From the NCBI GenBank assembly GCA_949130485.1, contig OX422204.1, forward strand, positions 1-64,000: a stretch of DNA of 64,000 bases, written 5' to 3'. Numbering within the stretch: the stretch's first letter is position 1; each line of letters opens with the position of its first letter. Positions 1-63,457 of this stretch are shown in pieces. The notes under the pieces are model-generated. The model did not search any database. It was not told where the DNA came from and saw only the letters and a program-made list of their open reading frames with translations. A program made the translations under genes and the position numbers. Origin of the DNA: Agelas oroides (taxonomy: Eukaryota > Porifera > Demospongiae > Agelasida > Agelasidae).

Positions 1-397
1 CTAACCCTAACCCTAACCCTAACCCTAACCCTAACCCTAACCCTAACCCTAACCCTAACCCTAACCCTAACCCTAACCCTAACCCTAACCCTAACCCTAA
101 CCCTAACCCTAACCCTAACCCTAACCCTAACCCTAACCCTAACCCTAACCCTAACCCTAACCCTAACCCTAACCCTAACCCTAACCCTAACCCTAACCCT
201 AACCCTAACCCTAACCCTAACCCTAACCCTAACCCTAACCCTAACCCTAACCCTAACCCTAACCCTAACCCTAACCCTAACCCTAACCCTAACCCTAACC
301 CTAACCCTAACCCTAACCCTAACCCTAACCCTAACCCTAACCCTAACCCTAACCCTAACCCTAACCCTAACCCTAACCCTAACCCTAACCCTAACCC
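1..397. repeat. Telomere, (CCCTAA)n
   Basis: About 66 uninterrupted CCCTAA units, which read TTAGGG on the minus strand. This is the canonical metazoan telomere repeat, and its C-rich strand reads inward from base 1, as expected for a left chromosome end. No degenerate units are visible before the array runs into C-rich satellite at about 395. Confidence 0.98.
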
Positions 398-3300
398 CCC
401 AAACACTTTGCCCCAACCCCCTTTCACTCAATTAACTATTAACACCAAACCCCCCAAACACTTTGCCCCAACCCCCTTTCACTCAATTAACTATTAACAC
501 CAAACCCCCCAAACACTTTGCCCCAACCCCCTTTCACTCAATTAACTATTAACACCAAACCCCCCAAACACTTTGCCCCAACCCCCTTTCACTCAATTAA
601 CTATTAACACCAAACCCCCCAAACACTTTGCCCCAACCCCCTTTCACTCAATTAACTATTAACACCAAACCCCCCAAACACTTTGCCCCAACCCCCTTTC
701 ACTCAATTAACTATTAACACCAAACCCCCCAAACACTTTGCCCCAACCCCCTTTCACTCAATTAACTATTAACACCAAACCCCCCAAACACTTTGCCCCA
801 ACCCCCTTTCACTCAATTAACTATTAACACCAAACCCCCCAAACACTTTGCCCCAACCCCCTTTCACTCAATTAACTATTAACACCAAACCCCCCAAACA
901 CTTTGCCCCAACCCCCTTTCACTCAATTAACTATTAACACCAAACCCCCCAAACACTTTGCCCCAACCCCCTTTCACTCAATTAACTATTAACACCAAAC
1001 CCCCCAAACACTTTGCCCCAACCCCCTTTCACTCAATTAACTATTAACACCAAACCCCCCAAACACTTTGCCCCAACCCCCTTTCACTCAATTAACTATT
1101 AACACCAAACCCCCCAAACACTTTGCCCCAACCCCCTTTCACTCAATTAACTATTAACACCAAACCCCCCAAACACTTTGCCCCAACCCCCTTTCACTCA
1201 ATTAACTATTAACACCAAACCCCCCAAACACTTTGCCCCAACCCCCTTTCACTCAATTAACTATTAACACCAAACCCCCCAAACACTTTGCCCCAACCCC
1301 CTTTCACTCAATTAACTATTAACACCAAACCCCCCAAACACTTTGCCCCAACCCCCTTTCACTCAATTAACTATTAACACCAAACCCCCCAAACACTTTG
1401 CCCCAACCCCCTTTCACTCAATTAACTATTAACACCAAACCCCCCAAACACTTTGCCCCAACCCCCTTTCACTCAATTAACTATTAACACCAAACCCCCC
1501 AAACACTTTGCCCCAACCCCCTTTCACTCAATTAACTATTAACACCAAACCCCCCAAACACTTTGCCCCAACCCCCTTTCACTCAATTAACTATTAACAC
1601 CAAACCCCCCAAACACTTTGCCCCAACCCCCTTTCACTCAATTAACTATTAACACCAAACCCCCCAAACACTTTGCCCCAACCCCCTTTCACTCAATTAA
1701 CTATTAACACCAAACCCCCCAAACACTTTGCCCCAACCCCCTTTCACTCAATTAACTATTAACACCAAACCCCCCAAACACTTTGCCCCAACCCCCTTTC
1801 ACTCAATTAACTATTAACACCAAACCCCCCAAACACTTTGCCCCAACCCCCTTTCACTCAATTAACTATTAACACCAAACCCCCCAAACACTTTGCCCCA
1901 ACCCCCTTTCACTCAATTAACTATTAACACCAAACCCCCCAAACACTTTGCCCCAACCCCCTTTCACTCAATTAACTATTAACACCAAACCCCCCAAACA
2001 CTTTGCCCCAACCCCCTTTCACTCAATTAACTATTAACACCAAACCCCCCAAACACTTTGCCCCAACCCCCTTTCACTCAATTAACTATTAACACCAAAC
2101 CCCCCAAACACTTTGCCCCAACCCCCTTTCACTCAATTAACTATTAACACCAAACCCCCCAAACACTTTGCCCCAACCCCCTTTCACTCAATTAACTATT
2201 AACACCAAACCCCCCAAACACTTTGCCCCAACCCCCTTTCACTCAATTAACTATTAACACCAAACCCCCCAAACACTTTGCCCCAACCCCCTTTCACTCA
2301 ATTAACTATTAACACCAAACCCCCCAAACACTTTGCCCCAACCCCCTTTCACTCAATTAACTATTAACACCAAACCCCCCAAACACTTTGCCCCAACCCC
2401 CTTTCACTCAATTAACTATTAACACCAAACCCCCCAAACACTTTGCCCCAACCCCCTTTCACTCAATTAACTATTAACACCAAACCCCCCAAACACTTTG
2501 CCCCAACCCCCTTTCACTCAATTAACTATTAACACCAAACCCCCCAAACACTTTGCCCCAACCCCCTTTCACTCAATTAACTATTAACACCAAACCCCCC
2601 AAACACTTTGCCCCAACCCCCTTTCACTCAATTAACTATTAACACCAAACCCCCCAAACACTTTGCCCCAACCCCCTTTCACTCAATTAACTATTAACAC
2701 CAAACCCCCCAAACACTTTGCCCCAACCCCCTTTCACTCAATTAACTATTAACACCAAACCCCCCAAACACTTTGCCCCAACCCCCTTTCACTCAATTAA
2801 CTATTAACACCAAACCCCCCAAACACTTTGCCCCAACCCCCTTTCACTCAATTAACTATTAACACCAAACCCCCCAAACACTTTGCCCCAACCCCCTTTC
2901 ACTCAATTAACTATTAACACCAAACCCCCCAAACACTTTGCCCCAACCCCCTTTCACTCAATTAACTATTAACACCAAACCCCCCAAACACTTTGCCCCA
3001 ACCCCCTTTCACTCAATTAACTATTAACACCAAACCCCCCAAACACTTTGCCCCAACCCCCTTTCACTCAATTAACTATTAACACCAAACCCCCCAAACA
3101 CTTTGCCCCAACCCCCTTTCACTCAATTAACTATTAACACCAAACCCCCCAAACACTTTGCCCCAACCCCCTTTCACTCAATTAACTATTAACACCAAAC
3201 CCCCCAAACACTTTGCCCCAACCCCCTTTCACTCAATTAACTATTAACACCAAACCCCCCAAACACTTTGCCCCAACCCCCTTTCACTCAATTAACTATT

Positions 3301-4488
3301 AACACCAAACCCCCCAAACACTTTGCCCCAACCCCCTTTCACTCAATTAACTATTAACACCAAACCCCCCAAACACTTTGCCCCAACCCCCTTTCACTCA
3401 ATTAACTATTAACACCAAACCCCCCAAACACTTTGCCCCAACCCCCTTTCACTCAATTAACTATTAACACCAAACCCCCCAAACACTTTGCCCCAACCCC
3501 CTTTCACTCAATTAACTATTAACACCAAACCCCCCAAACACTTTGCCCCAACCCCCTTTCACTCAATTAACTATTAACACCAAACCCCCCAAACACTTTG
3601 CCCCAACCCCCTTTCACTCAATTAACTATTAACACCAAACCCCCCAAACACTTTGCCCCAACCCCCTTTCACTCAATTAACTATTAACACCAAACCCCCC
3701 AAACACTTTGCCCCAACCCCCTTTCACTCAATTAACTATTAACACCAAACCCCCCAAACACTTTGCCCCAACCCCCTTTCACTCAATTAACTATTAACAC
3801 CAAACCCCCCAAACACTTTGCCCCAACCCCCTTTCACTCAATTAACTATTAACACCAAACCCCCCAAACACTTTGCCCCAACCCCCTTTCACTCAATTAA
3901 CTATTAACACCAAACCCCCCAAACACTTTGCCCCAACCCCCTTTCACTCAATTAACTATTAACACCAAACCCCCCAAACACTTTGCCCCAACCCCCTTTC
4001 ACTCAATTAACTATTAACACCAAACCCCCCAAACACTTTGCCCCAACCCCCTTTCACTCAATTAACTATTAACACCAAACCCCCCAAACACTTTGCCCCA
4101 ACCCCCTTTCACTCAATTAACTATTAACACCAAACCCCCCAAACACTTTGCCCCAACCCCCTTTCACTCAATTAACTATTAACACCAAACCCCCCAAACA
4201 CTTTGCCCCAACCCCCTTTCACTCAATTAACTATTAACACCAAACCCCCCAAACACTTTGCCCCAACCCCCTTTCACTCAATTAACTATTAACACCAAAC
4301 CCCCCAAACACTTTGCCCCAACCCCCTTTCACTCAATTAACTATTAACACCAAACCCCCCAAACACTTTGCCCCAACCCCCTTTCACTCAATTAACTATT
4401 AACACCAAACCCCCCAAACACTTTGCCCCAACCCCCTTTCACTCAATTAACTATTAACACCAAACCCCCCAAACACTTTGCCCCAACC
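398..4488. repeat. Subtelomeric 55-bp satellite, about 74 copies
   Basis: A strict 55-bp period (for example, CTTTCACTCA recurs at 421, 476 and so on). Each unit carries CCCCCC, a CACTTTG core, CCCCAACCCCC, then an AT-rich half with TTAACTATTAAC. By eye every copy looks identical until the array breaks at 4488 in mid-unit (CCCCAACC then AATTTT). No long open frame spans it. The C-rich blocks resemble degenerate telomere sequence, and the CCCAAACACTTTGC core recurs near 28830 in inverted satellite A. Confidence 0.96.
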
Positions 4489-47657: not shown

Positions 47658-50600
47658 CTAACTGCTGGGGTCCTTGAACTTGTGCCTGTGTCCCCGAACA
47701 TGTTTGCCTGCAACACAAGAGCCATCATTAATGTACACTAACACTGACCACACACAGGACGGAGGCTACAAACGTACCAGAATTCCTGTGTCTAATGTCA
47801 CTTGTTTCCTGAGCTCCATTGCTCTGATGGGAGCTAGTTTCCCTGAGGGCCTGCTCTTGTGATAGCTCTTCTGGCCTAAACAGAGAGAGAGATCTTTCAC
47901 AAGGTGTAATTATCTGACTTTGAAAGACTGTACAAGACCTTAGCCTCATTCCCAGGCCCAGCCCAGCAGTTGCACGCGGGGAGAGCCTGGGAACAAGACC
48001 TAGTGAGGAAGGTTACATGCTCCCACTCCATAGTGGATACTACTATCAACTCACCTAAAGTGCTTCTTTCTGTGCCTTGATCGCCTTTGTGAGTTTGCCT
48101 CTAACACCTTCTTCCACCAAGAGGAACAATTATGTGTACACATCACAAAAGGGTACACCATTGAGTGTCAGCACTACTGAACTAATTCATAGCAGCATGC
48201 TTTTGGCTGTATCAAACATGTCCAAGGGAGGAGCTAGACATCTCTTATCTTATATGTACAAGAAATGGCTTCAACAGGTGCAACCTATATAGCTGATCTC
48301 ATCACAGTGGGGAGAGCCTGAGCAAGCAGCACATTGTTATATCATGGCACACAAACCATGAAAAGCAGAGGGTTAGTGACTTCTGGCAGTCAGGGGAGCC
48401 ACTGTGCATGGCTACACAGTCATGGACTAGGCTTCACACCCAAATCATGAGCATGGCCCTAACCTGAGGTGACCTCATGCAGCCACCATCTATGGGTAGT
48501 CTGTCTTGAAGTTTGTCTGTTGTGAAGTAGTTGAGATAGCTTACAATAAACCAGACATGTAAGTTGCCATGCCTCCTTCAACTTGAGTCATCTTTCCTCC
48601 ACGCCTCTGCCGATGCTGTACTAGCTCTGGCAAGAGTGCATAAGAACGGGTGGCTTGAGTAAGAGCGTGTAACTCTAATAGAAGTCTGGTCAAAATTATT
48701 CTAAAAATAGAACACCCAGTCACATGCTTAACAACAATTGCTTTTGTCTACACAGCATGTGCAGTATGCGTTACCATTTTTAGAACTGGCGATAAATAAA
48801 TGCAGGCAAGAAGCAAACACACACATGTGCGCAATGCAGTCTCGTTAGTGTGGGGCTCGCTCAGGCTTGTCCCATTCACAATTTCAAGTGCTTACATTAC
48901 TTCCCTGCTCTTCCCGTCCACCATCACGACTGGTCCCATGCTCCTCCGATCTTACATTCATGGTCCTTCCCTGCTCTTCCCGTCCACCATCACGACTGGT
49001 CCCACGCTCCTCCGATCTTACATTCATGGTCCTTCCCTGCTCTTCCCGTCCACCATCACGACTGGTCCCACGCTCCTCCGATCTTACATTCATGGTCCTT
49101 CCCTGCTCTTCCCGTCCACCATCACGACTGGTCCCACGCTCCTCCGATCTTACATTCATGGTCCTTCCCTGCTCTTCCCGTCCACCATCACGACTGGTCC
49201 CATGCTCCTCCGATCTTACATTCATGGTCCTTCCCTGCTCTTCCCGTCCACCATCACGACTGGTCCCATGCTCCTCCGATCTTACATTCATGGTCCTTCC
49301 CTGCTCTTCCCGTCCACCATCACGACTGGTCCCATGCTCCTCCGATCGCCCTACTGCACTATTGATAGCAAGTTAATTTAATAGGAAGAAAACGAAAAGA
49401 AAAACAAAATGACAAGGGAGAAGAGAGAAGGAAGAGAGGAGTGTAGCAGGGCCCAACCTGATTTCTAGATGCTGTGGAACTGCAGGAGTATTAACGTGGT
49501 CTGTCTCATGTTGTAGTTGCTGTTTGTTGTGTTTCTGAAGTTTCTTCTTACGAGGAGGCGGCGTAGGGTGCAACTCCTGCGGCGGCGTAGGGTGTAACTC
49601 CTGCGGTGGCGTAGGGTGTAACTCCTGCGGTGGTGTAGGGTGGGACTCCTGCGGTGGCGTAGGGTGCAACTCCTGTGGCGGCGTAGGGTGTAACTCCTGC
49701 GGTGGCGTAGGGTGCAACTCCAGTGGAGGCGTAGGGTGTAACTCCTGCGGTGGTGTAGGGTGGGACTCCTGCGGTGGTGTAGGCTGCAACTCCTGCGGTG
49801 GTGTAGGGTGGGACTCCTGCGGTGGTGTAGGGTGGGACTCCTGTGGTAGTTTAGGGTGTGACTCCTGCGGTGGCATAGAGTCTGGTACAGTCTTTGAGTC
49901 CTGTTCCTCATTTCCAGAATCATCCGAGTCCTCTGTATCAGTACTGTCATCTTGCTTGTTGAGACGAGGGTGAGCAGGACGTTGACTGTGACTGCGTAGC
50001 ACAGTAGCCACCAATTTGGCAGCTACAGCTGCTGAATACGTGCATACAGCAAGTACATCATGTGAGTGCATAAGGTGTTACTACATAGGCTGTATACAGG
50101 GTTCTAACTAGAAATCTACAATAGGTATGAAACGCCCTCTCTGAAATGTTAAGTGGGAAGCCAGGTTAGTAGCTGCCGTGGGCAGGGTTTAGCCTAAATT
50201 CACCACATAGCGAGTACCCTGGCTGTACCCACTGTCAAAACAGTGGAACAGAGGTACAAACACACCTAGAGGAGGTGGGCTGTCACTGGATGCACTCTCT
50301 GATGGACCCGAATGAGAATTTGCTGCATGAACAACGCAATCACAGCGTTGAGATGGGACAAGACTGACTAGCTAGAGGACAGACTGTGCACTCACTTCTG
50401 GCTGGTCTTTTATGCTGCTGGAAACATTCATTGCATGTTCTCTCAGCTTTGGGTTCCCACTGGCTGTCTGCCAGTCTCAGGTTTAGCCGGTGCGGGGAGC
50501 AGGAGGAGCAGACGACACGACCACACTGCCGACAATGGTGCTTCCGGACAAAGGCAGAGAAACGCTGGCCACAGATCATGCAGTCCTTGGTCATGGCATC

Positions 50601-51970
50601 AGGCACCCACACTGCTCGTGTCATTTTCTCACCCCCTGAGAAATGACAAGTTGGCAGGGATGAGGGTACACACGACACTGTTTATCTTGGCACAGCAAAC
50701 TGTCAGTCCAAAAATAGTGTGTATGCTGACCATATTGCAGTACAATATTTACCCAGCCATTTTACCTAATTGCACGACTCGGTCAATATGCTTCTGTAGG
50801 TTAGCAAGCCAATTAGCTTTGTCTGCAGCTGAGAGGGCAATGACGTGGAAAGACTTGTTAGCGTGGCTGATCTGAAATGCATTGGCCACATCTACAGGAA
50901 GGAAGAAGCCGATAATCTGTCGGAATGTGTTTTGCCAGAGTGTCTGTGACTTCCTCACCTAGCTGCTCGTCCAGCTGCTCTCTGTCAAGGTCAAAGGTCG
51001 CCTGGACGGCAGACTGGTAGTGACACTTGGAACTTACAGACATCTGCGACAGAGGAAGGACTTGCTGGTGGCTATACCGACTGGCAACAATAGACCCATA
51101 TACCTGGGGGTGGGGGATGTGGGGAGGAGTGTGTGGAGGTGTGGGGAGGAGTGGAGAGACAGAGCACACTCACCAGGACGTCGTTGAAGAGGAAAAACTG
51201 TCTTCGCTTTAGTCCCTTCCGGCACACCTTCCACATGGTGCCTTCTCGAATGAAGATCCTCCCTGGTACCAGCAGCACCTGTACACAAATATAGTCTCAC
51301 AAGCCCGACCCACTTCCGCAAGAGAAGGGAAGGGTCTGGTGAACTGCGTATACAAGCCGTGTCCCACCGCACTGTACAGTGTGGTAAAATCACATTGCTG
51401 TATTTTGTCACATGACGCATTACGTCACTGTTTGTGTACAAATAGCAGTCTTGAAAACGGGGAAAGAGAGCTAGGGCATCTTTTCCGCTAGTGCAGAAGC
51501 TGTACAAAACACTTCGACTATACTTCTCGGGGAGTGTGCTTACTCTGCAACAGGTAATTCAAGAGTGCATTATTTGAAATCTGGTTACGTCATCCAGCTA
51601 ATTGCATTTCAGTGGGACACGGCTTGTATATGCAGTTCACCAGATCCTTCCCTTCTTTTGCGGAAGTGGGTCTGGCTTGTGAGACTAACACAAATACACC
51701 ATCACACTCATCACACCCCCACCTTCACACCATCACACCCTCACCGCTCCTCCAGTAAATTTGCTCTGGATTTCTGTGATCTTCTCAACGTTAAAGTCTG
51801 ACTGGGCCAGGGCAGCCTCGGCCTGCAAGTAAACAACTGGTAATAAACCAAACTGGTACTGCACGACGCGTGATGACCAGGTCGTACCACGATCGCCACG
51901 GTCTCACCTCGGTGATGTGTACATTGGCAGCATTCACCTGGCCACCTCGCTTCTTGAAGAAACTGGACAT
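47658..51970 (-). CDS. PLEKHF2: Phafin (PLEKHF1/2-like) PH-FYVE protein with long repetitive tail
   Basis: An endosomal PI3P-binding adaptor. Exons (minus): 51970-51908, 51822-51745, 51278-51174, 51103-51038, 51001-50959, 50891-50766, 50635-50396, 50031-49458, then less surely 49358-48896, 48107-48055, 47875-47778, 47707-47658. Phases agree throughout, giving about 652 residues. The PH domain begins LLVPGRIFIREGTMWKVCRK and RRQFFLFNDVLVYG and ends FHVIALSAADKANWLANLQ. The FYVE domain has the WVPD lead, the RKHHCRQCGRVVC ligand motif and four CxxC pairs. This matches human phafins in order and wording. Vertebrate phafins are about 250-280 residues; here an acidic stretch (DSTDTEDSDDSGNEEQDS) is followed by 13 copies of an 8-residue TPPQELHP repeat and, if the last exons belong, seven 22-residue RSEERGTSRDGGREEQGRT repeats and a basic tail ending KFKDPSS. 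If the later acceptor is not used, the frame ends at 49373. The 36-nt gap between exons 4 and 5 is in frame and could be retained. Confidence 0.85.
47941..47992. mobile_element. Eroded TAGCCT-type foldback
   Basis: TAGCCTCATTCCCAGGC at the left pairs with GCCTGGGAA at the right, but the outer right terminus is missing or altered. ACAAGACCT occurs at 47932-47940 and again at 47993-48001, a perfect 9-bp duplication. It lies in an intron of the extended PLEKHF model. Confidence 0.5.
48896..49358 (-). repeat. 66-bp minisatellite, 7 copies, in frame with PLEKHF
   Basis: Exactly 66-bp spacing (CTGCTCTTCC at 48904, 48970 and so on). Each copy encodes the 22-residue RSEE(H/R)GTSRDGGREEQGRTMNV on the minus strand. 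The period is a multiple of 3, so the opposite strand is also open (GPSLLFPSTITTG...), which I regard as antisense shadow. Confidence 0.9.
49556..49880 (-). repeat. 24-bp coding minisatellite in PLEKHF exon 8
   Basis: About 13 copies of a 24-bp unit (GGTGTAGGGTGGGACTCCTG and variants on the plus strand), encoding (S/L)HPTPPQE. Variation between copies is mostly silent or L/S and H/Q, as expected for a translated minisatellite. Confidence 0.9.
51292..51687. mobile_element. TAGTCT-family TIR element inside a PLEKHF intron
   Basis: A 396-bp element: TAGTCTCACAAGCCCGACCC at the left and GGGTCTGGCTTGTGAGACTA at the right, arms about 75 bp and nearly perfect. A perfect 9-bp duplication, ACACAAATA, occurs at 51283-51291 and 51688-51696. 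It lies wholly within the intron between exon 2 and the first PH-domain exon, so it does not disturb coding. No transposase frame. Confidence 0.93.
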
Positions 51971-52165: not shown

Positions 52166-55100
52166 ATGGACGGGCTCGAATACTGCGAAGATTTGTCCAC
52201 GCTGCCGGAGCTGGCGGACTCTGCCTTGTTGACATGCCTGGAGCAGCGCTACCGCAAAGGCAAAGTACAGGTGAGCGCTTGATCAGTTGCGAGCGTGATG
52301 TTGAGCTGCAGAGAGCTTGCACATGCAGCGAGACTCCAAACTATAAACTATACACTACTCTATACTCGATGAAATGATGTCTTTAAGGTCATGATGATGC
52401 ACCCCTAGTTGTATTATTGTAAGTTTGTGACCTCTCAGAGTGGGTTTAGAACATGAAGGTAGACAGTCATGTTTTTGTGGGATACCGTGCTTGGAGCACA
52501 CTAAGATGAACTGGTGATCTCACTAGGGAGGAGGTTAGTGTTAGTTTCTCTCCTCTCCCTCCAGTCTGCTGTAGGGACAGTTCTTCTGTCCGTCCGGCCC
52601 ACACTCCCACAGGCACACCTCCCCCATTCCCACCTCCACCAGCTGGCTGGGAGGGTGGGCAGGGGGATGGCAGACCATCTTGAGGACCAGGCAGTCCTGC
52701 TGTATGGCCAGCCAGGTGCCGGCAAGACCGGCACCGCCCACCAGCTACTAAAGCTACTCCTGACCTCACTGCCGAGTAGAGAGGGGATCAGGGAGAAGGT
52801 GATGGATGCATCTCTGCTTGTTGAAGCGTTTCTTCCCAGTGAAGCCCAGGGGTTAGTGGTGACCTCTCTCTTCTATGACCCCAACTGTGAGCGGATCTCT
52901 GGAGCCGAGTTTTCATTCCTCCTACCAGACTTGCAGCACCTTGCTATATTTCAGGTGAGAGGGTGGGGTGGGACATTTCCAAGGTTTGGGGGTATGAGGA
53001 ATTCAGTGCCTTTGCCTGAAGACACAACATTGTGTAAACTCGAACATTTTGTTTCTCAGCTGTTCCAGTGGATGCGATGTGGCATGACCCCCTCTCAACT
53101 AGCTTCTCTTGGCCTCTCCCCTTCCTCGGATCAACATTCACACAAGTTTCCAGCCTTGGAGGAAGCCCTGCATGGACTGGCTTGTCCCACCCCCCTCCAG
53201 GAGGGACTCTTTGCTACACTGGCTGCTGTGGCACATTTGCTGGACTTGAACGAGCGAGAGGCTGCCCGGGTTCTGGGTGGTAGTCACGAGAACCTTCGGA
53301 AACTGCTGGAGAGCACAACCAGTTACTGCATTGCCAGACATTTGTACGCCCATCTTCTTCGATGGCTTGGTCAGTGCCAGTGTAGTAGTTCTGCATTTTG
53401 TCAACAATTACATGTAGGGCAGTTCCTGTGTTGGGAAATTCCTCTTTCAATAATAGTAGCAACAAAGATGAGTCTTGTGCTTATAAGGATTCCTGGTATG
53501 TGTTATGTTGTGGCTGCAGTTGGCTGGCTGAATGAGGAGCTCAAAGGAGGAGCCCAGGACTGCCGAATAGGTCTGGTGGACCCTCCTTGTCCTCCACGAG
53601 ACAGAACAGGTGGTGGAGTCCGTCAGCTAACCCGAGGCTACATGACCGAAGTGCTCCACAACATCTACTGTCTGCGAGTGTTTGACTGGGAGCAGGTTTG
53701 CAGTGCTTGTAACATTACTGTGTGTTCTGAGCTGATTGTAAACGGGTCATCCTCAGGAGCAGTACGCCGAAGAAGGAGTGGACTGGGAGAGTATAGTGGT
53801 GGAGTACAACCACCCCTTGCAGGACACTTTTGAGCAGGTCAGTGCGACACACTGTCTGTGTAGCCCATCATTCACCATTTGTCAGTCTGTCTGTCGATCT
53901 CCCTGGTAGCCTCAGGGTCTGTTGGACAGTCTGAACTGTTCCTCTGCGGAGGACCTGGTGGAGAGGGTGGGCAGCTGCTGTACTCTCACTCCCAATGTCT
54001 GCTACACAGGAGAGGTGAGGGCATCATTTACAAGGGCTAAACTTGTGATGAAATCCAATATATTACTAGCAAGCAGGTTATGTTGCCATCTGGCTTCTAA
54101 AGTTGCCATACTTCTTTCTAAACCTTGTGAAGCCTGTTAAATGCCAGAAATGCCACGAGTTTTTCCCCCCTCCCTTCTCTTCTCTCACCCTCTCACCCCT
54201 CCTCTACTCTCCCTTCTTCTCTCTCACCCCTCCCTAATTCTCTCTCACCCTCCTCCCCCACCCTAACAGGGTGCAGGTGAATTTATTGTTGCCCACTACA
54301 GTGGCGAGTGCACCTACCACATCGATGAAAGTTGGTGTGAGCAGAACAGTGAACTACCCAGTGAGGATCTCTCTCAATGGCTCTCCTCCTCCAGCAACCC
54401 TGTGATCCAGCAGCTTGCCCAGGTGTGCTCTGTGGGTTTAGGGCTGTTTACATTGGAAACCATTATCATTGATGGTGTCTCCTGATTAACTAATTGAGAG
54501 CTGTTCCGCCCATCTACTGGAAACCACCTACAAACGACATCACCTCACTGCCTGTCCACTTGCGTTTGTTCTCTCTGCAGTCAGTGGCTGACCACAGCCC
54601 AGACCTGCTTCTAGGGGACTCCCCCTCACCATGCTCCCTCAGTGACCGTGTTCGTTGGGGGATGAAGACCCTGACAAACTGGATCACCACCTCCCACCCC
54701 CACTTTGTCCTGTGTATAGCACCCAGTGCACAACAGGTAACTTCCCACCTGGAGAGAACACTCTCCAAGCCTGGTGTTACTTGTCTTTACTCATTCTTTC
54801 CCTTCTCTCCCTTCTCTCCCTCTTCTCTCCCTCTCCCTTCTGTCCCTCTTCTCCCCTCTTCTCTCCCTCTCCTCTCCCTCTCCTCTCCCTCTCCTTCTCT
54901 CCCTCTCCTCTCCCTCTCCTTCTCTCCCTCTCCCTCTCCCTCTCCCTCTCCCTCTTCTCTCCCTCTCCCTCTCCTTCTCTCCCTCTCCTCTCCCTCTCCT
55001 TCTCTCCCTCTCCTCTCCCTCTCCTTCTCTCCCTCTCCCTCTCCCTCTCCCTCTCCCTCTCCCTCTCCCTCTCCCTCTCCCTCTCCCTCTCCCTCTCCCT

Positions 55101-55613
55101 CTCCCTCTCCCTCTCCCTCTCCCTCTTCTCTCCCTCTCCCTCTCCCTCTCCCTCTCCTCTCCCTCAGGGTGGGGAGTTTGATGGAGGACTAGTGTTACAC
55201 CAGCTCCAGCAACTGCGAGTGTTGGACACAGCTCTCATCCAGTCCTGTGGCTACCCAGTTCACATGAGCTACTCCACCTTCACTCAACAGTACGGAGTAC
55301 TACTGCTGCGAGGCACCCACCTGGAGGCCAGTCGTGAGACTTGCCAGCACGTGCTTGAGACCACGAGACTGGAAGAATGGAGGCTTGGGAAGTCCCAGGT
55401 TAGAAGCCTCTTTGATGACATGTTGTCTGTTTACTACCATTCAAAGTGTGTGTGTGTGCCATATTAGGTTTTCTTGAAGCCCTGGCACTTGGACCAGCTT
55501 GAGAGAGCAGTCACCATGTATCAGATGTCTGCCAGGAAACTGCAACAAGGTTGGTGACTGGAAGAGGTGTGTGTGACACAGGCACCACAATATGATGTTC
55601 TCTATCTGTACCC

Positions 55614-55666
<53 letters not shown>

Positions 55667-58560
55667 ATTCAAGCCTTTCGTAGGCACTTCTTGCACAGTA
55701 ACAGTGACCTTCAAAAACATGTAAGGCTCGCTTGTCACTCGCTTGTCACTCCCTCTAGATCTGATCTGTTTCAGTGTTCTCCCAACCACCCTTCCTCTCT
55801 CCTCTCTCTCCTCTCCTCTCTCTCCTCTCCCTCCTCTCCCTCCCCTCTCTTCCTGTCTTTAGGTGGTGACATTGAACACGTTTTTAGAGTATGAGGAGGA
55901 TGAGGAGGAGGAGGACTCGACCGACACTCTCTCTCCCTCCGACTCCCCACCCCTCCCACCCCTCCCACCCCCCAGACCAGAACACACCCTCAGCATAGGT
56001 ACGTGTGGGAGGTGTGCATGAAACTGACGGTCAGGAGGATCAATGCACCGTGTTTCTTTCCTTAGATGAACCTGGGGAGGAGGACGAGGAGGGGGTTACC
56101 TACCTCACCTTACTGGCAGCTAGTCAGCAAACCAGGGCAGCCAACCACACAACAGATAAGGCTAGTCTGGTTTCTCCTTGCGTGAGCTGGGTGAAAGTAG
56201 AGGCTGTGTACTCTAATTATTCCCCACTCTCCCTCCATTTGCAGTGGCCAACTGTCAGCCCCTCACACAAATCCCACAGTCCCACCCACGAGCCTCCCAC
56301 TGTCACACCCACACATAGCCCTGCTCACAAGCCTCCCACCGTCACACCCACACATAGCCCTGCTCACAAGCCTCCCACCGTCACACCCACACACAGCCCT
56401 GGTCACAAGCCTGGCAGTCAAGGAGAGTTTCCCAGTTCCGCACACAGGAAGAAGTCAAGCTGGGGCAGATCAGAGGTGAGGGAATGTGTGTGCTGCCGTC
56501 TCCCTCTCCACTCTCCCCTTCTCTCTCCCCTCTCTCCCTTGCCTACTCCTTCTCGATCTCCTGCTCCTCTCCTGACCCTAAACCTTCCCCCTATAGAATC
56601 GTCCCACAAGCAAGCAACAACCTCCTCCAGTGGAAGAACCCATTAAGAGCCAACTGTAAGTCAGACAGAGAGGCGTGATTTGCTGTCCTTTGGTGATACT
56701 GTGGCAACAACCTTTATCCAAATTCTGTGTCCACCCATTTGTGTTTCCACGGTGACAGGTGGTTTCATGGCAAGCTTTCTAGGGGTGTCGCCGAGACCAG
56801 ACTGAAGAATGTGACGGTTGACAGCTTCCTCATCCGAGAGAGCGAGAATCGTGTTGGTGAGTTTGCTCTCTCTGTGAAGTACCAGGGCGCAGTCAAACAC
56901 TTCCGCATTGACACCAAGCGAGGCTCTGGGAGGAGACGGTTTGAGCTGTTTGGTGCGCAGCACTCCTTCCCCTCCCTCACTTGTCTGGTGGACTACTACC
57001 ATGAACACTCCATCTCCAGTGCGGGCGAACTCCTCATGACTCCCTGCCCAGTCGAGGTGAGTCACCGACCTCATCAGCCTTTCTTTCAGAGATGGTGGTG
57101 CAGTGAAAGCACTTCCACAAGTGAGACAGTTTCTTGCCTTTCTCAGGTTAGTGCCATGGATGTGCCTCCCCAGTTGCCCCCCAGACGCAACGGTCTCTCC
57201 ACCATCCGAAGACCCAAACCCACCCTCCAATCCCTCCCCATACATGAGACTTCAGCGGGTAATATATTGCCATATATGGTCGTATGTAAAGCATCATGGG
57301 ATTGCATCATAATTGCTAAGCTAGTACATGGACATGTAAAGCATGGCAATTTAAACTTGTGAGTTTTCTGTGTCAGACTACAGTTCACTCATCAAGTGGT
57401 TTGCACAGGATTCTGTTTTCACTTGAACAATAGCATATATCTACAGTACACGACTGATCTTTTCATAGAGCGACGAGCAGCATGGGGCACATACCGGCCC
57501 ATGAGCCTGGGTGACCTCCCAGACAACCCTGACAAAGCCAATCCAGCACTACAGTACTCAGACAAAGTCATTGCCGCTCTGCAGAAGGAACTGGATATTG
57601 AACAGAGGATTGTGGAGGCAGCACGACGCATGGCAGAGCTCCCCACTAGCAGCAAGAAGGAAAGAACCAAGCGAAGACAAAGCCTGCAACAGTGAGCTCT
57701 AATGCAAGACCCCTTAGCCCTAACCCTGCAAGACCCCTTAGCTCTTGTGGACTGCAGACCCTTAGCCCTCATAGACTTCAAGACCCCTTAACCCTCGTAG
57801 ACTGTAAGACCCCCTATCCCTCACAGACTGCAATACCCCTAAGCCGCCCTCATGGACTGCAAGACCCCTTAGCCCTTGTGGACTGCAGGACCCCTTAGCC
57901 CTCGTGGACTGCAGACCCCTTAGCCCTCATGGACTGCAAGACCCCTTAGCCCTCATGGACTGCAAGACCCCTTAGCTCTTGTGGACTGCAAGACCCCTTA
58001 GCCCTCATAGACTGCAGACCCCTTAACCCTCGTAGACTGCAAGACCCCTTAGCCCTTGTGGACTGCAAGACCCCTTAGCCCTCATAGACTGCAAGACCCC
58101 TTAGCCCTTGTGGACTGCAAGACCCCTTAGCCCTCGTGGACTGCAAGACCCTTTAGCCCTCGTGGACTGCAATACCCCTTAGCCCTCTTATTACCATGCT
58201 CCTTCTCAGATTTTTGGTTGCATACATCATGTGTTTGAAACATGATGCAACCAAGAGCTGAGGAAGATACTGAGACTGTGATGTGGTCATCAACTCTCTC
58301 CCTTCCCGCCAGGGCACAGGCCAAGCTGTTGAGTCTGAGGCAGCAGTACCACACATTGCAGGAGCGGCGCAGGTTCCTGGAAATATCAATGAAGAACGTT
58401 CTCACCACCAGGTGAGTGGGCCATACCTTGTGCAAGTACTGCACGAGGTATGGCCCGGGTTTGAGGAGTGTGCATGTATAGGTGAGACTGGTTCATCTTT
58501 TCTCCTTTCTCCCGCAGACGAGTGTCTGAACCCCCTCCATTGCCACCCCCACGATACTGA
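52166..58560 (+). CDS. Myosin-head pseudomotor with SH2 and CUPID-like domains
   Basis: Twenty exons with fully consistent phases (52166-52270, 52565-52954, 53060-53369, 53520-53695, 53757-53837, 53910-54014, 54270-54422, 54581-54736, 55168-55398, 55468-55549, 55674-55720, 55863-55998, 56066-56181, 56245-56475, 56597-56655, 56759-57056, 57147-57258, 57469-57691, 58313-58411, 58518-58560) give 1,050 residues. Residues 1-590 follow a myosin head from start (LPELADSALLTCLEQRY) to converter (KVFLKP-like, GKSQVFLKPWHL): P-loop GQPGAGKT at 83-90, HYSGECTYHIDESW, HPHFVLCIAPS, LVLHQLQQLRVLD. Switch I (NxNSSRFGK) is not recognisable, and the DxxGFE switch II region reads LVDPPCPPRD, so ATP-driven motility is unlikely. 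One poor IQ-like segment follows, then acidic and Pro-rich linkers with KPPTVTPTHSPAH repeats. The SH2 domain (793-892) keeps FLIRES (Arg819). The C-terminus has IVEAARRMAELP and basic/coiled-coil sequence like FRMD4/INAVA CUPID, plus PPQLPPRR and PPPLPPPRY SH3-ligand motifs. It probably links phosphotyrosine signalling to actin or cytohesin partners. Confidence 0.85.
54790..55167 (+). repeat. Intronic CTCCCT polypyrimidine repeat
   Basis: About 375 bp of (CTCCCT)n and TTCTCTCC filling intron 8 of the myosin-SH2 gene and running directly into the CCCTCAG acceptor at 55167. The long Ser/Pro/Leu open frames over it are artefacts. Confidence 0.93.
55610..55662 (+). repeat. Poly-C / CA microsatellite
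   Basis: A run of about 18 C followed by (CA)n in intron 10 of the myosin-SH2 gene, just before its acceptor. Confidence 0.9.
57705..58192 (+). repeat. 26-bp intronic minisatellite, about 18 copies
   Basis: The unit GACTGCAAGACCCCTTAGCC plus CTCGTG repeats with one- or two-base variants, starting right after the donor at 57691. It makes up most of intron 18 of the myosin-SH2 gene, between the CUPID-like and coiled-coil exons. Confidence 0.9.
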
Positions 58561-58770: not shown

Positions 58771-60182
58771 ATGTCTGAACAAAGTGACAAGCCGTTCAGT
58801 TGTGGTATTCCGGGCTGTGGACAGGTGAGCCAATTTCAGCTAGAAAATGGCGGGCTTCAGGGTGTGTTGGGTGCGCCCGTCGGGAAGCTCCTGTCGGCAC
58901 GAGGAGCGGGCGCGGAGTTGATCCTGGTACAGCTCGAGCGAGCTGCTTGGATCAGCTTAAAGTTCCAATTACATCACCGTCTGAAGCGTCTGTCATGATG
59001 TCAGCATCATGTCACCGCGAAATGCTTATTAGTGTTTTTCCCTTACATCATCTTTCTCACAACTGCTGCAGCGGTTCGCGAATCATGACCACCTCATCAC
59101 GCACCAGCAGAAGCACGAGTTCTCGCTCAAGTTCAAAGCTGGAGAGAGTTTATTAGTGGGTTAGTGTGCTGCATACTCCCTCCCCCCCCTAGTGTTTGTG
59201 TCACCAGTCTCTTCACACCTTCAGACCAAACACCGACCCCAACAAGGTTTCTGCGCAACCTGGAGGAGAGTGGGCTCTTCCAAGAGCTGGAGACTAACCC
59301 TTTTGACCAGGTCTGTACCCACATAACAGAAGTAGAGTGCATTTCCCCTTGTATCCAAGGTTGGATTAGTCCTACATGATCTTGATTATGCACATAACAA
59401 CCAACAAAACTAAAAGAGGGTTTTCACAGACATCATCGCTTTTAAGAATACGGAAATATACTAAAGAAAACAGCCGCCATGTTGGGTTACAATGAGAAGG
59501 TAGCTTCTATCTCGGCGAATGCAAAGAGACACTTAGAATGCTTGTAGTATGTGTTGAATTGGGTGAAGTACCACCACTCTGTAAGTTTAAAAAGCAGTTT
59601 ACCTGTTTACTGGCCAGTTTGTTTTTGATCAATACTGTCATATACTGCCATGTATAAAGCTGTACTCCAAGATGGCGGTGCAAGTTTTAGTATACGGATG
59701 TGTACGGCTTTGATGACAGTGAAAAGCCTCTATTGTTCCACCCTTAACCACCATGCTTTCTTGCTCAGGACTACATAGTGAAAGTTGTGGAAACCACCTT
59801 CATTGTTTTAGACTCATTTACTCTCACTGAGAAATGTTCGTTCCTCTTTTACTGCTTTAGGACTTCAAGCAGGCCACGAATGGACCGAAGGAGGTGAGGT
59901 GGCTAGCACCCTAACCCTTTCTGTTGTTGATGTGGTCACTGACCATCTGTCAATGTGTTCACAGGGGTCGGGCAGTCGTCAGTCAGGTGGTAAACCTACC
60001 TCCTCAGCAGAAGGGAAAGGTTGGAAGCACACTCTATCCTAGTACTGTGCAGTGTCTCACGTTAGGTTCCTCTCTCTCTCTCAGTTGAGACGCCACCAGT
60101 CTCGGCAGGCACCACTGTCACGCGTGGTACAACCACCATCCCTGTAGCTCCACCCCCCAATCTCGCCAACCCAGAGAAAGTA

Positions 60183-60226
<44 letters not shown>

Positions 60227-62017
60227 AGGTTGTTAGCTTGAGAGCTAAGAAGCTTTAAGATGGGTGCTACAGCATCTGCAGTGTATGAGGTCTGAATTGG
60301 CTCTTACCCGGTCTCAGTGACTTTCTCTGCCAGGTTCCCATGGCATCAGCGCCTGCTCATGTCAGTAACACAGCTGCCACTGCCATTACAAAGCAGGTGA
60401 GCACGCCACCCTTAACCCTGCTAGCCATAATGGCTGACATGTTTCAAACTAGTGGCTGTCTCTCCCTCAGAAGCTGCTGCAGAATATCCAGCTGAAGGAG
60501 CAACAAAAACTGTTGGAGCAGCAGCTCGCAGTACACCTGGGACAGAACCCTGAGCTGCTGGCCCAGGCACTCAAGGGAGTCATACCAGTGAGCCATTAAG
60601 TGTATGAGAAGAACGACTCCACTCTGATTAGCCCTCCCCTCCTTACCCAGGTGGCTGAAACAAGCCCGTCCAAGTCCACCACCATAGAGCAGCAGGGTAC
60701 TGAAGTGACGTTTGTAACCCCTGGGTCGGACTCTGAGCTGGTAGGCAGTGCTGTGAAAAGGTGAGCCATGTTCACATTAAACTTGTATAGCAGATGACTC
60801 CAACTACTAACACATGTTCTGTGTGTATAAACAGATGGTCATGGTAGAGGTTTTGACTGTGTTCTTGCAGGAAACGTGGGAGGAAGCCAGATGATGAGGA
60901 CCCAGAGGTGAAAAGGACAAAGTTCCTTGAGAGAAACAGGTTGGTTGCTTTCTTCCAGCCCACTCAAAGAGTTTGTCTTGCAGCCATGACCCAATTTTCT
61001 CCATAGCAGATCTGGGAGAGATCTGCAAACAAGGCTTGCCTTCTGATGCTAAGCATAGATGAGCTATTCACACTCTCACTCACACACTCTCTCTCACACA
61101 CACACACACACACACTCACACACACACACACACACAGGGCTGCAGCAAGCCGGTGCCGGGCTAAGAAGAAGCAGTGGGTGGACAGTCTGGAGAAGAAGGC
61201 AAAGGACCTCGAGGTTGTGAACCAGGCGCTGCAACAGGAGGTCCTCATGCTGCGCTCTGAGGTTCAGCAACTCAAGTCCATCCTCATTGCGCACAAAGAC
61301 TGCCCGCTCATTGTGCACCGCACTTCCAAGACAGGTGGGTGTGATAATTGGAATAGTTTTGTTGTGTGGTGTGCTCTAATTAGAATTGTCCACGGTCCTT
61401 TGTGTGTAGTGGACTCTAATTAGAATCCTTCCTATCCTTTTCCAGGGGAGTCCTCAGGAGGAGAGGCTGCAGAGATTCCTTCTGCCCCGACTGTCTCTGT
61501 CACAGCAGCTGGAGTGACATTACTCTCCCAGCTAGCCAACATGCCCTCCATGTCTCCCCTCATAGCCAGCCCGGTGCCCTCAGTGGGCAGCGTGGTACCA
61601 AACATTGGCACATCCTCCACTGTGCAGCCTACTACCATCATCATCACAACCAACGGTGTTACACAACAGGCACTAGAGGTGAGTGCCTGCCCACCTTGGC
61701 CAGCCTGGCTGGCTAGTGATCGGAGGAGATAAGCTGTAGCAAGTGGGACTGTCATGTTATGAGAGGCTTCTTTAGCCCTGAACCAAGCTCTGAATCTTCC
61801 TCAGTTCACAATATCATACCTCCTCTCCGGAGCCATGTTAGCAGCTTTGCCTTTTTGTATATTGTAAATGGAAAGGTTGTCCCTCAATGTGCAATGCTGT
61901 AGCTGCATGTACCTCTAGTCCCAATGGGATAACCATGACCCATCCATGGACTCCCTTCAGGTTGGGAAAGATGTCGAGATATCGGCAGACTCAGAAACAC
62001 AGACCATGGAACAGTAG
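58771..62017 (+). CDS. ATF2: ATF2/ATF7-type bZIP transcription factor
   Basis: Thirteen exons with consistent phases (58771-58824, 59072-59159, 59225-59310, 59861-59893, 59965-60019, 60085-60182, 60334-60396, 60471-60587, 60651-60760, 60871-60939, 61138-61334, 61446-61678, 61961-62017) give 419 residues. The N-terminus is a C2H2 finger (Cys11, Cys16, His29, His33; KPFSCGIPGCGQRFANHDHL), as in ATF2/ATF7/CREB5. It is followed by DQTPTPTRFL, where Thr50 and Thr52 match the JNK/p38 sites of ATF2. A Ser/Thr/Pro-rich middle and a Gln/Leu-rich helix (LKEQQKLLEQQLAVHLGQNP) precede the basic region KFLERNRAAASRCRAKKK, the leucine zipper, and the AHKDCP tail of the family. It is a nuclear stress-responsive regulator that binds CRE sites as a dimer. 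It is a single member of the ATF2/ATF7/CREB5 group; I cannot say which vertebrate paralogue it is closest to. The start follows a short leader and matches the family N-terminus. Confidence 0.92.
60185..60224 (+). repeat. (GT)n microsatellite
   Basis: About 20 GT units just after the exon 6 donor of the ATF gene. A reciprocal (CA)n tract lies before exon 11 at about 61095-61136. Confidence 0.9.
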
Positions 62018-62122: not shown

Positions 62123-63457
62123 TTATTCAGTGTCAGAGTTGTGTGTGAAGACAGTGTGAGTGGGAGTCTTGTGTGCTTGTGTACATGCAACATAGCCTGG
62201 GAAATGGTATTCAATACCTAGCTCCTTTAGCCTGGCCCTCTTCTGCCGATCTCGACTGAGGAGGCGAGACACACGTCTGCGATGTTCTGCCATGGTATGA
62301 GCCTGAATAGAAAATGAAAACCTAAGTAGGTGGAGGTATGTGCTCTAATTAGTGCACACCTTACCGCATTGTGCTGCTTCTGAGTCCATTGCTGTCGCTG
62401 ATGAAGTGGAATCTCCCTCACCCTCCTACCGCTCCTCCTGATTCTCCCTACACCAACAAACTGACCTGAGAGATGAAAGAGAAGATTAATGATTCAGAGG
62501 GATTATTCCTAGCTTTTCATCTTCCACATGTGAGGAAACACAGTTGCTCCCCCCCATTAGTGCAAGGCTTGGTGCCGTCTCACATTTGAGAAGCTTGTTG
62601 AACATCAAGTAGTTGTTCATCGTGTCTGCCACAACCTTGGCCACCTCATCACACTCAAACTCGATGAACGCATAGCCTTTGGATCGTCCACTCTGTGAGA
62701 ATTTAGAGGCACACACAATAAGCTTAGTAAAGGTATGTCTGACAGTGTCCCTACCTTCCTGCTCCTTGCAAGCCTCAGCCGTGTGACTGTCCCAAACTGA
62801 GTAAAATACTTTCTCATCTCTTCCTCGTAGAACCCGTGGGGTATGTGACCCACGTATACCACTCCTGGACGAAGGGTGCCACCCTAACATTTGAGCAAAA
62901 TTCCGATGATAGGGTGCATGCTTGCACAAAATTACATATCAGGAGGGAACACCTTATTCCTGAGCATTATGCACCTATCACTTTTTTGAGGGGATTGGAT
63001 CGCCTACTGTAGGGGAAATGGATGTTTTAACTATAAATTTGCCTGAGGTAACCAATTTCCGACTATTGGGGCACTGTGCTCAGTCAAATTCCCATCATGT
63101 GCCCAATTGGGGGGTAGTGGAGCATAATATTGTTCAGTTATCATCATGTGCCCAACTGGGGGGTAGTGGAGCATAATATTGTTCAGTTATCTGCACAAAT
63201 TATGCTGAGTTATGCTCACACAAATTATGCTTGTATATCTGTGCATGTCATATAGTGCAGTGTGCATGTAGTGTAGTCTCGCGTAGCCAGAGTTTGGCTA
63301 CGCGAGACTACATGTAGTGTGGCCGTTTGAAGACACAGTTACAGGTGATACGAACCTCCTCCTTTTTCTGTCGCCTTTTCCTCTTCTTCTCCAGCCGTTT
63401 CTTGCCTCGCTCCTTCCGCCTTGCGTCCACAACACTCCGATCCACCTTCGACTCCAT
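62123..63457 (-). CDS. NIFK: NIFK-like nucleolar RRM protein
   Basis: Five minus-strand exons (63457-63356, 62883-62755, 62692-62584, 62465-62365, 62302-62123) in consistent phase give 206 residues. The N-terminus is very basic ([16 protein letters not shown]). The RRM runs [34 protein letters not shown], then [20 protein letters not shown] and [16 protein letters not shown]; this RNP1/RNP2 wording and the TMNNYL motif match NIFK, the MKI67 FHA-interacting protein in ribosome biogenesis. The C-terminal exon has [13 protein letters not shown], like the GIDYDFPS segment of NIFK. Human NIFK is about 293 residues; this one is shorter and lacks an obvious FHA-binding Thr-rich tail. Reading through the donor at 62584 gives an alternative end at 62486. 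The gene converges on the ATF gene with 105 bp between stops. Its first intron holds a 37-bp foldback element (63274) and a roughly 50-bp tandem duplication at about 63094-63190. Confidence 0.87.
63094..63190. repeat. Two-copy 49-bp tandem duplication
   Basis: CATCATGTGCCCAATTGGGG...TTGTTCAGTTAT occurs twice in succession with one difference (AATT/AACT), within NIFK intron 1. Confidence 0.85.
63274..63310. mobile_element. Minimal 37-bp TAGTCT-family foldback
   Basis: TAGTCTCGCGTAGCCA pairs with TGGCTACGCGAGACTA around a 5-base loop. A perfect 9-bp duplication, CATGTAGTG, occurs at 63265-63273 and 63311-63319. It is essentially two fused termini with no interior. Confidence 0.92.

Follow-up and report, generated by a model that had tools for sequence, protein, structure and literature searches.

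The closest described relatives of the locus presented here are myosins that carry an SH2 domain in the tail. Class XXVIII animal myosins, with IQ, a short coiled coil and SH2, were described in 2007 and found in Nematostella, Xenopus, chicken and some fishes (PMC2375034). A class-28 myosin has been reported for Capsaspora (PMC5583752), myosin III-like SH2 myosins in choanoflagellates and filastereans (PMC3942036), and a sea-star SH2 transcript carries the name myosinIIIb-like (PMC11593052). A first-pass annotation of this DNA had noted SH2 myosins in choanoflagellates (PMC3942036); they are not limited to that group, as animal class XXVIII indicates (PMC2375034). Myosins that are not motors have a precedent as well: in class XVIII, the P-loop and switches depart from the consensus and ATPase activity is negligible (PMC11112018). 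When the literature on SH2 and HR1 myosins was searched (sponges, choanoflagellates, holozoans and class XXVIII), mostly in papers free of subscription, no myosin was recognised that had SH2 together with HR1 or CUPID.

The gene described here belongs to the sponge Agelas oroides and lies in a window of 64,000 nucleotides (the whole stretch of DNA analysed). With confidence that is about even, we read it as encoding an unconventional myosin of the SH2-tailed kind, the motor of which would have decayed into a pseudomotor and which would serve as a phosphotyrosine-triggered cytoskeletal scaffold, not as a transporter. In terms of described architectures, we regard it as a motor-degenerate variant of the known SH2-tailed kind with an HR1-like tail.

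Positions 52166-58560 of the + strand (the strand of all features of the gene) hold 20 exons that, once joined, give an open frame of 1050 residues with a single terminal stop. The spliced model starts at 52166, its stop codon ends at 58560, exon phases are consistent and 19 of 19 introns are GT-AG; the first-pass proposal of 20 exons in consistent phase is thus reproduced with the same coordinates and exon count. Exon borders were picked by hand so as to keep the frame open. Consistent phase by itself is therefore no independent evidence, and such evidence comes from the colinear domain matches described below. A leave-one-out codon score, whose training set left out exons 12-14, ranked the model frame best of three in 17 of the 20 exons, with exons 14, 15 and 20 as exceptions. 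Exons 6 and 17 were ahead by a narrow margin only, and scores near or below zero were obtained in exons 6, 8, 12 and 17. With the model frame not preferred in some exons, details of the linker are uncertain. Acidic and rich in proline, this linker occupies exons 12-15 (55863..56655) and repeats a PPTVTPTHSPAHK-type unit; the frame stays open across exons 11-15, between the head and the SH2 domain. No AATAAA or ATTAAA signal was detected between head and SH2; since the 540 bases that follow the stop lack one too, that absence says little. Given that the spliced frame is open and that SH2-tailed myosins have been described before, the head and SH2 exons probably belong to one transcript. As predicted from genomic sequence, the locus is a real, unusual protein-coding gene model with an open frame.

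The myosin head (aa 1-596; 52166..55549) is encoded by exons 1-5 (52166-52270, 52565-52954, 53060-53369, 53520-53695 and 53757-53837) and exons 6-10 (53910-54014, 54270-54422, 54581-54736, 55168-55398 and 55468-55549). Pfam Myosin_head matches the whole protein with 155.3 bits (E 2.6e-45; cut-off 33.3), a significant score that places it in the myosin superfamily, as had been proposed. Myosin-X is the best relative of the head in the PDB (E 4.8e-34), with a colinear alignment of aa 6-117 and 245-582. In Pfam, the best stretch runs from profile position 332 to 679, and exon 2 by itself covers 66-138. Residues from about 117 to 245 are aligned by neither the Pfam nor the PDB match, indicating that this stretch of the head is shortened or unrecognisable. 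The earlier description of the head as full-length but degenerate was, in consequence, generous in its first half, as the alignments are partial; degeneracy is evident, as neither switch is recognisable.

Motor motifs were located by aligning the head with joined pieces of two myosins of the same genome, one that we take to be class V-like and one that we take to carry MyTH4. The pieces of the latter do not reach switch II, whereas those of the former do. The P-loop, GQPGAGKT (aa 83-90; 52706..52729), keeps the Walker-A pattern and differs from the usual GESGAGKT at two positions. Where switch I would be expected (PSEAQGLVVTSLF, aa 126-138; 52835..52873), the NDNSSRFGK of both comparators is missing in the alignment, and EAQGLVVTSLF is found there. 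At the place of switch II (LVDPPCPPRD, aa 287-296; 53573..53602), located by the PDB match and the class V-like comparator, a DIYGFE-type motif is missing, and DPPCPPRD stands where the class V-like comparator has DIYGFE. In the SH1-helix region (QLQQLRVLDTALI, aa 504-516; 55201..55239), placed by the PDB match and the comparator alignment, arginine replaces the glycine of myosin-X and of the class V-like comparator. Other elements are retained, namely a relay-like segment, FVLCIAPS (FVRCIKPN in myosin-X) and the converter sequence GKSQVFLK. NCBIfam returned only weak P-loop ATPase matches for the model.

An active motor has three intact elements, the P-loop and the two switches, and only the P-loop is kept here. 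Because switches I and II are required for ATP hydrolysis, their joint loss points to a pseudomotor; as the P-loop is kept, nucleotide binding may persist. A tentative interpretation is that the head no longer hydrolyses ATP through the normal myosin cycle and is used as a folded platform that may bind F-actin or make protein contacts, whether or not nucleotide sits on the P-loop. Class XVIII myosins (Myo18A/B) have altered P-loop and switch motifs in common with this gene, and by analogy their negligible ATPase suggests the same for this head; their tails, however, differ, and SH2 is not described in the available part of the source (PMC11112018).

At the end of the head, LQQAFRRHFLH (aa 594-604; 55540..55696), which is split between exons 10 and 11, resembles an IQ motif by eye. 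Pfam listed no IQ match at E <=10, in a search whose HMMER filters drop weak matches. The SH2 domain (aa 794-892; 56759..57056) is contained in a single exon, exon 16, and includes FLIRES and KHFRI. Its Pfam score on the whole protein is 59.8 bits (E 2.9e-16; cut-off 21), so that SH2 is found in the tail as in class XXVIII, and the FLIRES motif previously annotated as intact is indeed present at aa 816-821. Its closest PDB match is RasGAP (E 2.5e-20). Two putative ligand motifs are also found by pattern: PQLPPR (aa 900-905; 57168..57185), which fits the PxLPxR pattern of SH3 ligands, and the C-terminal PPRY (aa 1047-1050; 58546..58557), which fits the PPxY pattern of WW ligands. In common with class XXVIII, the protein has a myosin head and a tail with SH2 and a short coiled coil; it differs in that switches I and II are unrecognisable, IQ is seen only by eye, and an HR1-like coiled coil follows the SH2; the accessible part of the class XXVIII description makes no mention of whether any motor of that class is likewise degenerate (PMC2375034). 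The choanoflagellate and filasterean proteins also have a head and a tail SH2, and the accessible part of their description mentions neither dead motors nor an HR1-like tail (PMC3942036).

The coding sequence of the HR1-like coiled coil (aa 964-1022; 57570..58367) runs to 57691 in exon 18 and resumes at 58313 in exon 19. Intron 18, between its two halves, houses a 26-base tandem repeat of 18.8 copies (57703-58187). On the spliced tail, HR1 (PF02185) scored 25.8 bits (E 1.1e-5) over 61 of 67 positions, short of the Pfam cut-off of 33.1; on the whole protein the score was 19.7 bits, also under that cut-off. A search of the sponge's own genome (259 Mb in 141 contigs, as in all own-genome searches) gave seven HR1 matches, three of them over the cut-off. 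Exon 18 of the window ranked fifth, with an E of 0.2 that alone is not significant, and 2 of 14 control prokaryotes also matched at E <=10. An HMM made from the three own-genome HR1s over the cut-off gave the spliced tail 19.4 bits, a score reached by none of 2000 pattern-keeping shuffles (best 13.7), none of 2000 full shuffles (best 9.3) and none of 141 natural coiled-coil windows (best 9.3), of which 112 came from one locus. By these controls, the similarity goes beyond that of a generic coiled coil. When 10 control tails (nine shuffles and one reversal) were submitted to Pfam, neither HR1 nor CUPID was listed for any of them at E <=1. Alignment of the three own-genome HR1s with the tail by hhalign gave a probability of 72 (E 3.4e-5), and one of the three matched the tail by blastp with 30.5% identity over 59 positions, in a database made of those three. 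A profile combining the three HR1s and the tail retrieved the PKN1 HR1 structures 4nkg, 1urf, 1cxz and 9rxe. The two matches of a PDB search with the tail alone (E 0.24 and 0.44) were taken as unrelated. Compared with the HR1 of PKN, the tail has the same IEQR...AA..M pattern and both helices, but it scores below the Pfam cut-off, contains one repeat and is not accompanied by a kinase domain.

Genome-wide profile searches detected 97 SH2 and 97 Myosin_head matches. When positions are compared by eye, two of the SH2 matches, C16:6151672 and C16:6182341, turn out to follow myosin exons. The corresponding loci are neighbours (L036/L053, C16:6140500-6157000; L054/L055, C16:6171000-6187500), and both show GESGAGKT, NDNSSRFGK and DIFGFE followed by FLKYWH, WFHG and FLIR, in this order and on one strand. 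In each of them, head and SH2 are inferred to form one gene, so that the genome probably carries two SH2 myosins with intact motor motifs besides the degenerate one. Such a set offers a natural comparison between working and retired motors coupled to phosphotyrosine signalling. Among the 44 of 72 candidates that were scored, the best matches to the SH2 domain of the window were the SH2 exons C22:5447885 and C22:5829432 (44 and 43%). These belong to two loci, L058 and L059 (C22:5446000-5450000 and 5827500-5831500), which, read by eye, closely resemble each other, each with its SH2 in one exon ahead of Kelch-like repeats. Of the 97 SH2 matches, 11 fall on contig C22, and 10 of these, the window SH2 included, span the whole profile in one exon. 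Relatives of the model were also sought in viral and prokaryotic collections; the 78 and 186 pattern matches obtained, respectively, were in no case confirmed.

The existence of these loci raises the possibility that the gene is a diverged class XXVIII myosin, duplicated from a common ancestor with both C16 loci, SH2 included. The order of head, IQ-like segment and SH2 is the same as in the C16 loci, which are also the best own-genome matches to the converter region of the window (identities of 33%, E 5.3e-4, and 31%, E 6.5e-4, with 44 of 72 candidates scored in the head and SH2 comparison). FLKxWHxDxL is common to this converter and the C16 loci, and a codon pattern for FLKYWH was found only at the two C16 places. 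However, over aa 410-533 a myosin at C13:4927835, which we take to be myosin II-like, matches equally well (29%, E 5.2e-4; 49.7 bits in a separate search), so the local head matches point two ways. Exon structure also differs, as the window SH2 sits in one exon and the C16 SH2 matches cover profile positions 1-44. Furthermore, the SH2 of the window is identical to those of L058 and L059 at 43 of 97 positions and to that of copy A of the C16 myosins at 33 of 95. In a tree of seven SH2 sequences, 98% ultrafast bootstrap supported its grouping with L058 and L059, separate from the SH2 of the C16 myosin as well as three more. This tree included the window, copy A and five of seven given loci, leaving L051, L052, SH2-myosin copy B and the rest of the 97 matches outside, and sampling is therefore small; a separate acquisition of the window SH2 is a hint from few sequences. 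Finally, no HR1-like stretch was detected in the 16.5 kb of sequence scanned for each of the C16 loci (best E 1.5). Descent as a class XXVIII duplicate thus seems unlikely to us, if worth keeping in mind.

Two further explanations concern the integrity of the gene and the nature of its tail. The head and the SH2/HR1-like exons might belong to two genes, or to a decaying pseudogene from which nothing is translated. The codon score of linker exons 14 and 15 and the hand-chosen borders of a model predicted from genomic DNA would be compatible with this view, which we nevertheless consider very improbable: the spliced frame runs through 1050 codons without an internal stop, the codon score ranks the model frame first in most exons, and the SH2-tailed myosin is an established architecture. 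As for the tail, the first-pass annotation had likened it (IVEAARRMAELP, KKERTKRRQ) to CUPID, a domain that would make the protein recruit cytohesin Arf-GEFs to phosphotyrosine sites and actin. The window stretch does rank first among three own-genome CUPID (PF11819) matches, no shuffled or reversed tail gave such a match, and there is a local resemblance to profile positions 100-135 of 136, the portion held in common with the CUPID of INAVA, FRMD4A, FRMD4B and CCDC120 (PMC6226287, in its available part). Scores, however, were below the cut-off of 22.4 in every scan, with at most 36 of 136 positions covered: 18.3 bits on the unspliced exon-18 frame (E 0.0025), 16.3, 17.4 (E 0.0048) and 17.2 bits on three spliced tail pieces, and 12.9 bits on the whole protein (E 0.11). 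Genome-wide, the window stretch had an E of 1.03, and none of the three matches passed the cut-off. The first 99 profile positions, around three quarters of the domain, found no match, and HR1 outscores CUPID on the spliced tail. The two domains may have a helical pattern in common over this segment, and the CUPID match might then be a side effect. We give very little credence to the CUPID assignment, and the tail appears better described as HR1-like, though below the Pfam HR1 cut-off. The other two own-genome CUPID matches, L039 and L040, were regarded by eye as chance.

Returning to the SH2-tailed pseudomotor, its product is probably a phosphotyrosine-recruited, possibly Rho-linked scaffold, whose mechanism can be outlined by inference. 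The SH2 domain would recruit the protein to tyrosine-phosphorylated partners. The HR1 of PKN binds Rho-family GTPases; with an HR1-like tail, a Rho-type GTPase is a better-motivated partner than an Arf-GEF, and by this analogy it is the most plausible candidate for what the coiled coil would bind. The proline motifs may bring SH3 or WW partners, and the net role would be that of a cytoskeletal scaffold triggered by phosphotyrosine instead of a transporter. Hence, the scaffold proposed by the first-pass annotation stays plausible for a myosin-derived, degenerate head with SH2, while its Arf-GEF side is not supported, given the sub-cut-off CUPID scores. A doubtful speculation goes further: the retired motor of an animal myosin might have been rebuilt as a phosphotyrosine-to-Rho adaptor, made of a pseudomotor, an SH2 of other origin than that of the older SH2 myosins and a Rho-binding HR1-like tail, with the SH2 perhaps gained through exon shuffling from an SH2 family that has many members on the contig of the gene. 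Pseudoenzymes that keep the fold without catalysis often turn into regulators, and class XVIII provides a precedent among myosins.

The window begins with a perfect, telomere-like CTAACC array (1-397), followed by a 55-base satellite (386-4488) and by degenerate satellites at ~6.0-28.7 kb; with these at the window start, the gene is apparently close to the end of a chromosome. Downstream of the myosin gene, a C2H2-like stretch reminiscent of ATF2 was noticed by eye at ~58.8-59.2 kb, in a frame (58788-59156) without Pfam match, and a bZIP domain lies at 61007-61423 (+; 40.0 bits). A weak RRM_1 match follows at 62486-62938 (−; 22.4 bits, cut-off 20.7). Just upstream of the myosin gene, a FYVE zinc finger is encoded on the opposite strand (50340-50681, −; 70.3 bits).
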